In this document: positions 411 through 3,444 of the stretch, one piece after another
Layout: every line of letters begins with the position of its first letter
Numbering within the stretch: position 1 is the first letter of the stretch
Assembly (NCBI GenBank): GCA_027051265.1
Contig: JALTZH010000039.1
Span: 1-5,770 of the forward strand
Direction: 5' to 3'
Source: an archaeon
GTDB lineage: Archaea > Hydrothermarchaeota > Hydrothermarchaeia > JALTZZ01 > JALUTC01
Length of the DNA: 5,770 bases
Program-made: the position numbers and the translations under genes
The notes under the pieces: model-generated
What the model was told of the DNA's origin: nothing
Seen by the model: only the letters and a program-made list of their open reading frames with translations
Database searches by the model: none

Positions 411-1517
411 TTAAATATTTATGAGATGCGTTTTATATCCTTGTAAATTTAGGTAAAAGCATGCTTTAGTTGAATTCGTAGCAATAGTTTTATATTTTAA
501 TGGAGAAACTACCATACATGTATCTGGTATCAATTTAATATTTTCGCATCGAACATCTTCTTTAAAAAGTTTATAAAAAGAATAATTTGTAAACAAAAGT
601 ACTTCATTCTTAAACTTCATTCTTAAATAACGTTTGATCTCCATCATGCTTAGATGTGGACAACCTAAACAAATAGCTTCATAATCGTTGGATTTAAACA
701 TCAAAACCGTGTCATCTAACGTTTTCCTGTCAAGCTTAATCTTTTCCAAATCTTCTATATCGTAATTTTTGGATTCCAACGTTAAATTATATACGTGAAA
801 AATGTTAATGCTTGATACGCTTAATCCTGCGGATAAATATTTCAATTCATCGACGTTCGGATATACGTTTTCTATAATAGGTATTTCTCCGAGTTCTTTG
901 CCTATATAATATCCTAGTAAATAATATTCGTAACCTTTTAATTTATCTTCAACGATAACTCTAATTTTCGGCTTCCTATTTTCTTCTTTGTGTAACCCAT
1001 ATAATGGAGTCTTTCCTATTATTGCAGCAGCTATTGAAGAGATGGAAGATTCCCTATTTGTATAAGCACCAAGTACGGAATTTACAAAAATCGTTGCAGA
1101 ACTTTCGGCAAATGCTACATGTCTTCTATAAGGTAAGTTTCCTATGTAATAAGGAGTACAAGTACAAGTAATTTTTGCACCCATTTGTTTTAAAACATTT
1201 AGTATGAGCATTTGTTTCTTATAGAAATGTTCATCCACTCCCAATATATTAAACCTATCAACACCTGAAGGATTCGTTGTTGCAAGAATGGAAAATTTTG
1301 CACCTAAGTTTTTTAAATCCATAAGAAATTCCAAACCCGCATCACCTATGTTTTTATAAGATATACCAGATATATGCGCAGCATCGATTTCTATTAAGCG
1401 ATCGGCTTTGTTTATATCTCCAAGTTTTACTAATATTTCCATTGCTAGCCTTTTTGCCTCACCATGTTCCCCATCCAAAATTTTTTCTTCATGTTTTGAG
1501 AGATAAATAAAACTCAC
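411..1517 (-). CDS. Phosphomevalonate dehydratase large subunit (aconitase X family)
   Basis: A 368-residue protein of the aconitase X (AcnX, DUF521) catalytic-subunit family. In most archaea this family forms the large subunit of phosphomevalonate dehydratase, which turns (R)-5-phosphomevalonate into trans-anhydromevalonate 5-phosphate in the archaeal mevalonate route to isoprenoid lipids; it carries an Fe-S cluster. Visible family motifs: YLSKHEEKILDGEHGEA (5-21), SYKNIGDAGLEFL (53-65), a Cys pair C118/C120, FAESSATIFVNSVLGAYTNR (136-155), GKTPLYGLH (168-176), CLGCPHLS (283-290), DTCMVVSPL (332-340) and TNSTKA (347-352); C118, C286 and C334 are candidate cluster ligands. The length is near normal and the N-terminus looks complete. 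The start is GTG; no nearby in-frame ATG precedes M26. The start codon abuts the end of an IS607 element, so the native promoter is probably displaced and transcription may now come from the IS. The small subunit (DUF126) that must partner this protein is not in the window. The family is sure; the precise substrate is inferred from archaeal context. Confidence 0.9.
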   Translation of the reverse strand: MSFIYLSKHEEKILDGEHGEAKRLAMEILVKLGDINKADRLIEIDAAHISGISYKNIGDAGLEFLMDLKNLGAKFSILATTNPSGVDRFNILGVDEHFYKKQMLILNVLKQMGAKITCTCTPYYIGNLPYRRHVAFAESSATIFVNSVLGAYTNRESSISSIAAAIIGKTPLYGLHKEENRKPKIRVIVEDKLKGYEYYLLGYYIGKELGEIPIIENVYPNVDELKYLSAGLSVSSINIFHVYNLTLESKNYDIEDLEKIKLDRKTLDDTVLMFKSNDYEAICLGCPHLSMMEIKRYLRMKFKNEVLLFTNYSFYKLFKEDVRCENIKLIPDTCMVVSPLKYKTIATNSTKACFYLNLQGYKTHLINI

Positions 1518-1525
1518 CCCGTTCT

Positions 1526-1577
1526 CTCCTCAAGGTGGCTTCATTAACATTAAGTAATATTCATCCACCTTGAGGAG
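1526..1577. repeat. 13-bp perfect inverted repeat across the tnpB stop codon
   Basis: CTCCTCAAGGTGG at 1526-1538 is the exact reverse complement of 1565-1577, with a 26-base AT-rich spacer. The tnpB stop codon (1530-1532) lies in the outer arm. In AT-rich DNA a 13-bp GC-containing palindrome at the very end of an IS is unlikely to be chance. It could be a guide-RNA stem, a transcript-end hairpin, or both. Confidence 0.85.
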
Positions 1578-2741
1578 TTCTCCCGTTCCGTCTTCTTTTA
1601 TGAGGAGGACTTCATCGGGAAGCGTTCGGGGGGAACGGAACTCCCCACATTCTGACTTAAAGAGGTTAAGGGTGGCGAGGACATCTCTATCGATGATTTT
1701 ATTACAAATATTACATTTCAACAACCTCTGCCCATTCGGGTTTAGCATATACCCACATATTGGGCAGAGGCGAGAAGTATATTCGGCATCGGAATATTTA
1801 ACAGGTAAACGAGACCATTTAGCTTTGTATTCGATGAAAAGCTGTAATTTTCTGAAATTCCATCTGTTTAATCTTCTTCTTATGTTTTTTCTCTTCCTAT
1901 TGATGGTGATACGTAGGTTGTTTAGGTTTTCCATGATGATTTTAGCGTTATATTTTTCAGCTTCTCGAACTATAATTTTTGATACTTTGTGTAAGAAATT
2001 TTCAACCCTTCTTTTTTCTCTACCGGAATATTTTTTCAGGATTTTTCTCATTTTGATAGGTTTTTTAGCGAGTTTTTTCTGGATTTTCTGCCTTTTTTTG
2101 GAGTATTCGTCGTGAATCCTCTTCACCTTATAAATATCGAGCCTTACCGTCTTAATAACTTTTCCATCCTTATCGAATATTGAATAGGTAACGTTTTTCT
2201 CGTTTATATCGATTGTTATAGTTGCAGCGGTTTCTTTAGGCTTGAAGATTTTCTTAAACGGGATTATGATGAAATCTTTCTTAATGATTATCTCTCCGAT
2301 ATCAAGTTCTCCTCTCTTCCAAGCTTCGATGAACTTTCGTTGATATTCAGCAACAACTAAATTCACGATTATTTCTTTTCTCGGAGAAGTAACAATCTTA
2401 ACTTTATCCCCCTTGAACTCGAAAAGCATTTCTTCGAGTTTAATGAACTCTTTCTTAACCTCTGGCTTATTTTTATAAGCTAAACCTTTTCTTTTTCTCT
2501 TTCTGAAATTCTTCAAGATTGCCGTTGCAACTCTACAGGCTGAATGACAGTAATGAGTGTGATATTTCGGATACCATCTTTTCTTCCACTCTTCATAAAT
2601 TGCTTTCCTAAGCTTAGCATATGAGGTGATGTTTAATTCCAATGCTTTATCAATGCAAAATTCTATCATCTCACTGAAATCCCTGAAAAGTTCGTCGAAG
2701 CTTCTATGATATTTAAACTTGACCGATTTAATTATCACCAT
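1530..2741 (-). CDS. tnpB: TnpB, RNA-guided nuclease of the IS607 element
   Basis: A 403-residue TnpB (OrfB) of the archaeal IS607/IS1341 type, the ancestor group of Cas12. TnpB proteins cut DNA that matches a guide carried by an RNA made from the transposon end, which helps keep the element at its donor site. Visible parts: an N-terminal REC/wedge-like region with YHTHYCHSACRVA (60-72); RuvC-I with catalytic D178 in TITIDINEKN; a basic helical stretch (about 205-300); RuvC-II with E271 in IIMENLNNLR; a four-Cys zinc finger, C326/C329 and C343/C346; and RuvC-III DRD at 351-353. All three acidic positions are kept, so it should be catalytically competent. The RuvC-III tail reads DRDVLATLNL instead of the commoner DRDxNAAxN. 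The start ATG at 2741 overlaps the tnpA end by 14 bases, suggesting coupled translation. The stop lies about 12 bases inside the IS end, and the last 250 bases of the gene double as structured RNA sequence. Confidence 0.93.
   Translation of the reverse strand: MVIIKSVKFKYHRSFDELFRDFSEMIEFCIDKALELNITSYAKLRKAIYEEWKKRWYPKYHTHYCHSACRVATAILKNFRKRKRKGLAYKNKPEVKKEFIKLEEMLFEFKGDKVKIVTSPRKEIIVNLVVAEYQRKFIEAWKRGELDIGEIIIKKDFIIIPFKKIFKPKETAATITIDINEKNVTYSIFDKDGKVIKTVRLDIYKVKRIHDEYSKKRQKIQKKLAKKPIKMRKILKKYSGREKRRVENFLHKVSKIIVREAEKYNAKIIMENLNNLRITINRKRKNIRRRLNRWNFRKLQLFIEYKAKWSRLPVKYSDAEYTSRLCPICGYMLNPNGQRLLKCNICNKIIDRDVLATLNLFKSECGEFRSPRTLPDEVLLIKEDGTGELLKVDEYYLMLMKPP
1550..1561 (+). repeat. Right-end copy of the 12-bp IS end motif
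   Basis: TTAAGTAATATT on the plus strand matches 11 of 12 bases of TTAAGTAACATT, the minus-strand reading of the left-end copy at 3409-3420. Relative to the element, this copy is inverted with respect to the left-end copies. It lies in the spacer of the 1526-1577 inverted repeat, about 30-40 bases inside the right end. It is a candidate TnpA binding site. Confidence 0.45.
1725..1770. repeat. 10-bp inverted repeat inside the tnpB zinc-finger coding region
   Basis: CCTCTGCCCA at 1725-1734 is the exact reverse complement of 1761-1770. Inside the 26-base spacer, GGGT (1738-1741) can pair with ACCC (1751-1754). The hairpin lies in the codons between the two CxxC pairs of the TnpB zinc finger, about 200-250 bases from the IS end, where the 5' part of a guide RNA would be expected. 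Confidence 0.7.
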
Positions 2742-3378
2742 TTTCTTTCAGCTCCTTCTCAACAGTTTCTTTAAGCTTTTTAACCTTATGGCTTCTCATA
2801 CCATACAATTTCCCTGCGAATGAAGTAATGATGCTTATTAAGTCATCAATAAGCTCCTCTTTTGGCTCTTTTTCTTTTTTTGGTTTAATGTATTCCACCG
2901 AAACTCCACAATAGCTTAGATGTCTTTCAATATATTTTAAACCGAATCTCGATAACCTGTCTGGATAAGTCACAATTACCTTATCAATAAGACCTTTCTC
3001 AGCTAAATCGAATATTCTCCTAATACCCTTCCTATCTTCCTTCAATCCAGACGCTCTATCTTTTATCTCCTCAACAATTCTATACCCTTTCTTCTGAGCA
3101 TATTTTCTAAGCAATTCCAGCTGTCTATTTAAATCACCATGTTGCTCTTGGTCGTAAGAGCTTACTCTCGCATAAAGAACAACTCTTACATCTCTGATTT
3201 CATCAATCCTTTTAACTTCCTCACCAAGTAATCTCCTTATTTCAGACTCTGGAATCCTTCTAATACCTCCAACAGTCTTAACAACTCTTATCTTACCTTC
3301 TCTGGCCCATCTTTGTAGTGTCTTTGGATGTACTCCTAATATTTCTGCAGCTTCCTTAATTCGATATAACTTTTCCAT
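2728..3378 (-). CDS. tnpA: TnpA, IS607-family serine transposase
   Basis: A 216-residue transposase that moves the element through a serine-recombinase mechanism via a circular intermediate. Residues 4-50 form a MerR-type helix-turn-helix (YRIKEAAEILGVHPKTLQRW, then a wing with GGIRRIP), which binds the element ends. Residues 65-195 are the resolvase/invertase catalytic domain: YARVSS (69-74) with expected nucleophile S73 and R71; the PDRLSRFG stretch with D140, R141 and R144; and the family-typical 'ELIDDLISIITSFAGKLYGMRSHK' segment, of which residues 182-198 are ITSFAGKLYGMRSHKVK. Having the DNA-binding domain at the N-terminus, the reverse of resolvases, defines IS607 transposases. The length is normal for the family. 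ATG at 3378 is the only sensible start. The gene overlaps tnpB by 14 bases. A TATA-like box lies upstream within the left end of the IS, with two direct repeats between the box and the start codon. Confidence 0.95.
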   Translation of the reverse strand: MEKLYRIKEAAEILGVHPKTLQRWAREGKIRVVKTVGGIRRIPESEIRRLLGEEVKRIDEIRDVRVVLYARVSSYDQEQHGDLNRQLELLRKYAQKKGYRIVEEIKDRASGLKEDRKGIRRIFDLAEKGLIDKVIVTYPDRLSRFGLKYIERHLSYCGVSVEYIKPKKEKEPKEELIDDLISIITSFAGKLYGMRSHKVKKLKETVEKELKENGDN

Positions 3379-3388
3379 AATCTTTTTT

Positions 3389-3420
3389 AATGTTTCTTAA
3401 CATGCTCAAATGTTACTTAA
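3389..3420. repeat. Two 12-bp direct repeats in the IS left end, 20 bases apart
   Basis: AATGTTTCTTAA (3389-3400) and AATGTTACTTAA (3409-3420) differ at one base and repeat every 20 bases, about two helical turns, so they face the same side of the DNA. Between them TAACAT (3398-3403) and ATGTTA (3410-3415) form an inverted repeat. They lie between the tnpA TATA-like box and the tnpA start. They are plausible TnpA binding sites that could also repress tnpA. Confidence 0.6.
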
Positions 3421-3428
3421 TTTTTAAA
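3419..3428 (-). promoter_or_regulatory. TATA-like box of tnpA-tnpB within the IS
   Basis: TTTAAAAATT on the minus strand is centred about 45 bases upstream of the tnpA ATG. With an archaeal start site about 25 bases downstream, the transcript would begin near 3397, leaving a leader of about 20 bases and placing the direct repeats around the start site. It is weak evidence on its own because the whole stretch is AT-rich. Confidence 0.4.
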
Positions 3429-3444
3429 CTGTGTTGAACCCAAA

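Follow-up and report, generated by a model that had tools for sequence, protein, structure and literature searches.

The closest described relatives of the RNA analysed here are the omegaRNAs (reRNAs) of TnpB-encoding transposons and two non-coding RNAs of Pyrococcus abyssi. In the ISDra2 omegaRNA, the loop of stem 1 pairs with the 3' end of the RNA (PMC10097598), and the reRNA of the IS607 element ISXfa1 needs its pseudoknot for activity (PMC10711439). The P. abyssi RNAs, sRk48 and sRk52, derive from repetitive loci and, as far as the accessible part of the original report goes, belong to six similar sequences related to partial OrfB (IS607) 3' ends, have a primary transcript that starts 22 nt downstream of a BRE/TATA box, appear on Northern blots as species of 130 and 190 nt, of which the 130-nt species is the processed form, and fold into four stem-loops, P0-P3, with covariation in P0 and P3; recombinant L7Ae retards them in gels, consistent with a K-loop in P2 (Phok et al. 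2011, PMC3124441). The same accessible text states no loop-to-end pseudoknot and no guide or TnpB role for sRk48/52, and in the open literature we found the two RNAs named only there (PMC3124441).

The window, by which we mean the whole 5,770-nt stretch of archaeal DNA analysed, contains an IS607-type element flanked by an aconitase X gene and by thiE/cofD (Table 1). We consider it very likely (probability roughly 0.9) that the minus strand from 1519 to about 1775 encodes the omegaRNA (reRNA) scaffold of this element's TnpB, overlapping the 3' end of tnpB. Features expected of an omegaRNA are present, namely, an intact tnpB whose 3' end the scaffold overlaps in sense, a pseudoknot that links a hairpin loop to the 3' end of the scaffold and, at the DNA level, a scaffold that ends at the right end of the element and is followed by variable flank. 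The element, its boundary, the compensatory changes in the helices and the loss of conservation in the flank can all be read from the compared sequences themselves.

Table 1. Features of the window, with positions, strand and the basis of each assignment.
Feature	Position	Strand	Basis
omegaRNA scaffold (H0, linker and core 1519-1653)	1519..1775	-	covariance model; 5' end inferred
H0, 5' hairpin (1725-1734/1761-1770, inner 1738-1741/1751-1754)	1725..1770	-	covariation
Stem 1 (1643-1646/1629-1632); loop carries the pseudoknot 5' strand	1629..1646	-	4/4 pairs change on both sides
Pseudoknot 5' strand, CCGUUC	1633..1638	-	covaries with the terminal hexamer
Pseudoknot 3' strand, GAACGG; last scaffold bases and element end	1519..1524	-	covariation, boundary
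Stem A (1616-1621/1580-1585), loop GAUGA...	1580..1621	-	6/6 pairs change on both sides
Stem B, right-end hairpin (1565-1577/1526-1538)	1526..1577	-	13/13 pairs change on both sides
Predicted guide, read downwards from 1518 into the aconitase X start	1499..1518	-	conservation lost after GAACGG; inference
Alternative pairing 1574-1589/1632-1644	1574..1644	-	in sequence, not conserved, judged non-functional
IS607-type element	1519..3441	-	sequence shared with C153 and L078 to exactly 1519; left-end alignment of copies
tnpA, serine recombinase, N-terminal HTH	2728..3378	-	Pfam HTH_17 residues 4-51, Resolvase 66-203
tnpB, 403 aa, RuvC and zinc-finger (TNB) nuclease	1530..2741	-	Pfam Cas12f1-like_TNB, alignment, solved-structure search
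Aconitase X gene	411-1517	-	flanks element
thiE/cofD	flanking element	+	neighbouring genes

Assignment of the element to IS607 rests on its TnpA, a serine recombinase with an N-terminal DNA-binding domain (Pfam), and on its ends. Copies from the same genome and the related locus L078 (76% identical) share sequence with the window up to exactly 1519, where the scaffold terminates in GAACGG (RNA sense), and diverge beyond it; in another genome, two identical 527-bp stretches (L035/L041) break at the last G of GAACGG, the homologous base. The left end, placed at about 3441 by alignment of the copies, begins with GGGTTCAAC at 3441-3433. The exact ends are ambiguous by a GG dinucleotide, and GG is found at both, which fits the crossover dinucleotide of IS607, GG (PMC6188088). 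The catalytic residues of TnpB (D178, E271 and D351) and its zinc-finger cysteines are invariant among 12 aligned relatives, and a search of solved structures with its profile returned Cas12f and TnpB chains. No empty insertion site was found among the relatives, the same-genus genome having no aconitase X match and the others being too distant, and a search of IMG/VR viral contigs returned no TnpB relative.

To describe the RNA, we built a covariance model, R1, from the tnpB 3' ends of other archaea, and a genome-wide TnpB search provided further loci; the seed of R1 comprised 14 rows, with the window among them, and three stems were modelled, leaving the pseudoknot out. The window core, itself one of the 14 seed rows, matched at 1519-1653 (E 6.9e-22), and R1 yielded 85 matches in 95 loci, almost always located at a tnpB 3' end and spread over many archaeal lineages. 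In the R1 alignment, the conserved fold was paired in 94.3% of cells compared with 66.4% after shuffling, covariation was 0.542 compared with 0.123, changes on both sides occurred in 27 of 29 pairs, and slid controls dropped to 40-55% paired; the alignment behind these counts had been fitted to the three stems in the model, and kinship among the sequences inflates them. The pseudoknot, being absent from the model, covaries in a manner that is not a product of fitting: we observed CCGUUC/GAACGG 42 times, CCGUUG/CAACGG 20 times, GGGGUU/GAACCC twice and GGGUUU/AAACCC once. A structure-blind MAFFT alignment of 14 sequences likewise upheld the structure, giving 94.3% paired cells versus 82.7%, with stem 1 and the pseudoknot invariant and hence uninformative. 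For stem A, the model prefers a register one base off for the window row, and the mismatch-free register is used here. The 5' hairpin, H0, was paired in 89.5% of cells versus 75.9% after shuffling, with covariation of 0.465 versus 0.203 (20 sequences, 12 of them copies lacking tnpB), and the 181-nt minus-strand RNA as a whole folded with z = -3.55, none of 200 shuffles being equally stable. In the degenerate copies C153 and C138, the pseudoknot is partly broken.

Thus, the central proposal of the original prediction, a minus-strand TnpB guide RNA scaffold spanning about 1518-1775, is borne out by covariance matches at tnpB 3' ends, by a covarying fold and, for its extent, by the conserved hairpin at 1725-1770. 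So is the second of the two pairings that it had offered for GAACGG, in which the terminal GAACGG (RNA sense, 1524-1519) pairs with CCGUUC (1638-1633). This pseudoknot also bears on a different reading, in which stem B and its neighbours are DNA palindromes for transposase binding or end recognition rather than parts of an RNA. Stem B does lie at the element end, the site on which TnpA has to work, and inverted repeats in DNA would covary as well; however, the pseudoknot spans about 110 nt across two other helices and cannot be read as a DNA palindrome, loop lengths vary, G-U cells outnumber A-C cells (78 vs 49, a weak strand test), and the homologous P. abyssi RNA is expressed according to the accessible text of its description (PMC3124441). 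We therefore regard a purely DNA-level feature as highly improbable.

Part of the conservation could, in principle, come from tnpB itself: the core overlaps codons, H0 sits within those of the tnpB zinc finger, the 3' strand of stem B contains the tnpB stop codon, and in parts of stem 1 and H0 the sequence itself is conserved. That protein coding alone explains the conservation of an RNA overlapping the tnpB 3' end is, however, contradicted by copies without the gene. Among 33 sampled copies (from G283, G196 and part of G132), 27 are without a full tnpB, two of these retaining remnants of 20-24 residues, and the fold is kept at scores of 40-107 bits. An alignment of 34 rows, 28 of which make up the tnpB-less set, covaries (0.414 vs 0.161), and 12 of the 20 rows in which H0 covaries come from such copies. 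We give the coding-only explanation practically no chance.

The original prediction had also suggested that the scaffold possibly has two states, for example one ending the tnpB message and one bound to TnpB. Every pairing that it listed is present in the sequence at its coordinates: 1565-1577 is the exact complement of 1526-1538, with no mismatch over 13 bp, and is conserved as stem B; a pairing of 1574-1589 with 1632-1644 is possible (7+6 bp around a 3-nt bulge) and uses 1574-1577 of the 13-bp stem; and CCCGTTC occurs at 1518-1524 and 1582-1588, GAACGG at 1633-1638 and CGTTC-GGGGG-GAACG at 1623-1637. In dinucleotide shuffles of 1518-1650, a perfect stem of at least 13 bp arose once in 2000 and a bulged 13-pair stem once in 500, a rarity that does not by itself separate genuine pairings from spurious ones. 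Of those listed, conservation was found for the 13-bp stem and for the pseudoknot with 1519-1524 only. The suggested pairing of 1633-1638 with the copy at 1582-1588 belongs to the rejected fold, 1580-1585 serving as the 3' strand of stem A; the small hairpin at 1623-1637 shows neither conservation nor covariation; and its C-run, suggested as a possible partner of the terminal GGGG, instead pairs with GGGG at 1643-1646 in stem 1.

An RNA switch in which the 1574-1589/1632-1644 pairing ends the tnpB message, and the stem B state binds TnpB, gains some credit because both pairings exist and are mutually exclusive, because the bulged one is rare in shuffles (1/500) and because in one relative, L082, the same two regions share a related complementarity of 8 nt. 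However, this complementarity is missing from most relatives, and in the R1 alignment, where a riboregulator should have both exclusive folds conserved, the alternative was paired in 51.4% of cells versus 51.1% after shuffling, with covariation equal to the shuffled level. Compensating changes, which the original prediction had named as its test, were thus found for the guide RNA fold and not for the switch. Moreover, the alternative fold carries an energy penalty of 9.6 kcal/mol at 37 C and of about 5 at 70-80 C, and in the equilibrium ensemble of the window sequence its pairs have zero probability. Because conservation does not rise above shuffles and the energetic penalty is 9.6 kcal/mol, the two-state idea is unsupported, and we consider the switch very unlikely. 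A co-transcriptional variant, in which the alternative forms before stem B is complete, would draw on the fact that the 5' strand of the alternative and its first partner are transcribed ahead of the 3' strand of stem B, but found no support. Very probably, there is one conserved fold, and the alternative is a by-product of GC-rich repeated strands.

Under the omegaRNA reading, the RNA would most likely be cut from the tnpB transcript or, in copies lacking tnpB, made from their own promoter; it would fold into H0, stem 1, whose loop would pair with the last six scaffold bases, stem A and stem B, and the pseudoknotted scaffold would bind TnpB. Because the scaffold ends at the element boundary, transcription into the flank would append a guide taken from the insertion site, which in this case is the beginning of the aconitase X gene. 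TnpB and this RNA would then cut at sites matching the flank, that is, unoccupied copies of the insertion site, which would help the element to be retained after it excises. That the RNA is expressed, processed and bound by TnpB, and that DNA is cut, are predictions by analogy with the homologues ISDra2, ISXfa1, ISFba1 and sRk52. Conservation stops at GAACGG, the pattern of a scaffold followed by a guide: among 84 members with full flank, each of the 20 positions past GAACGG carries at most 0.09 bits, the first excepted. That first base (0.4 bits; T in 48 of 84) is the sole guide position with a preference, which may reflect target choice or membership in the scaffold. At 1515-1531 of the window, the element lies 1-3 bases ahead of the GTG start of aconitase X and places an SD-like GAGGAG, within stem B, just upstream of this start; making the guide RNA and expressing aconitase X might interfere with each other.

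The architecture parallels that of the ISDra2 omegaRNA, with the same order of elements, pairing between the stem 1 loop and the scaffold end, further hairpins and overlap of the scaffold with the tnpB 3' end (PMC10097598), whereas ISDra2 is an IS200/IS605 element with a Y1 transposase, its pseudoknot is shorter, and its helix sequences are unrelated as far as examined. Nearer in element type are ISXfa1 (PMC10711439) and ISFba1/RAGATH-18 (PMC11061315), IS607 elements with a scaffold at the tnpB 3' end, pseudoknots, a GG crossover and the flank-side base inside the scaffold; these are bacterial, whereas the window family has archaeal hosts. The sotRNAs/omegaRNAs of Halobacterium salinarum (PMC12558985) differ in belonging to IS200/IS605 elements of haloarchaea. 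Neither the window nor any of 20 relatives reaches the gathering cut-off of an Rfam model, that of RAGATH-18 included. Weak Rfam matches by E-value (NBR2, MIR6445 and others) were attributed to chance, and HgcC, considered as a candidate, had no Rfam match and no literature support that we could find. The result is a covariation-supported structure, pseudoknot included, for archaeal IS607-type TnpB omegaRNAs without a matching Rfam model.

The comparison with Pyrococcus is more direct. In genome G068, which we take to be P. abyssi GE5, match coordinates and copy number agreeing, the published sRk52 and sRk48 regions contain the model R2 matches at 1104118-1104231 and 985861-985983, respectively, and 6 of 7 RNA matches have no TnpB just upstream. 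Judging from the accessible part of the published description, the hairpins P0-P3 are, in this order, the counterparts of H0, stem 1, stem A and stem B, agreeing in sequence and covariation, and the sRk52 start at 1104056 lies about 20 nt past a TTTTTAAATA box and just before H0. The same source gives sRk52 lengths of 177 and 180 nt (clones) and 190 nt (Northern), which, counted from the mapped start, put its 3' end about 1-14 nt past the scaffold; this is short for a guide. Unlike the window, the sRk48/sRk52 loci have no adjoining tnpB, and the window copy, for its part, has an incomplete version of the canonical stem A K-turn. The stem A loop starts with AUGA in 71 of 85 members and ends with GA in 59, both holding in 55; the window loop has AUGA and lacks the terminal GA, so that its K-turn is non-canonical and binding of L7Ae to the window RNA is uncertain. 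In the open literature, an examined paper that names both L7Ae and TnpB draws no link between them. The family was thus already known as an RNA that is expressed, processed and bound by L7Ae in P. abyssi; its identity as a TnpB guide is new relative to the accessible text of PMC3124441. The orphan RNA sRk48/52 is thereby explained as a TnpB guide scaffold, and the L7Ae-binding result, together with many tnpB-less copies, is brought into the TnpB question.

These tnpB-less copies are the more interesting part and form an unexplored set. Comparing coordinates of RNA matches with those of TnpB matches to one TnpB query, we counted 74 RNA loci in G068, G283, G196 and G132, about 14 with TnpB or a remnant just upstream and about 60 without. 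A TATA-like box lies about 20-31 nt upstream of H0 in copies of G283 and G132, distances taken from G283 and some G132 copies only, and each tnpB-less copy has its own flank behind the scaffold. Many such copies (L209-L241, L037, L042) combine a TATA-like box with an H0 close to the core. In the window genome (G000, with the window being contig C39), the model matches at ten places, of which the two with the lowest scores are doubtful, and in several of them the coding stretch between H0 and core is deleted. Contigs C112, C138, C225, C134, C173 and C48 of this genome include several tnpB-less derivatives of two types; in C112, C138 and C225, a common internal deletion (window 1662-1719) joins H0 to the core. 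Tentatively, the tnpB-less copies might be independent, promoter-driven omegaRNA genes on tiny IS607 derivatives, carrying guides from their own sites, used in trans by TnpB encoded elsewhere and, in most archaeal members, bound by L7Ae via the stem A K-turn, a suggestion that we think has perhaps one chance in three. If true, the genome would hold a dispersed set of guides. A 2021 study by Altae-Tran reportedly described trans-acting standalone omegaRNAs of IscB; for TnpB, we saw no standalone omegaRNAs in the titles and abstracts of the open literature. Action of transposon-derived guides in trans in archaea is now directly testable.

Close relatives of the element, L078, L079 and L100 (TnpB identity 69-79%; TnpA 92% for L079), come from bins labelled Thermofilaceae, Archaeoglobales and Nanoarchaeota, reflecting either recent transfer between lineages or misbinned contigs. 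At L050 (2662-3995, in G196), a solo tnpB of the family adjoins genes judged by eye to encode aconitase X-like subunits, probably a coincidence. Finally, the scaffold of L051 terminates in CAACGG, as in a subgroup with the pseudoknot strand CCGUUG (L051, L083-L101, L107 and others; 22 members, one with CAACGU counted). This pseudoknot variant tracks solo tnpB genes: in the fetched DNA, a serine TnpA accompanied none of the 22 CAACGG members compared with 24 of 45 GAACGG members.
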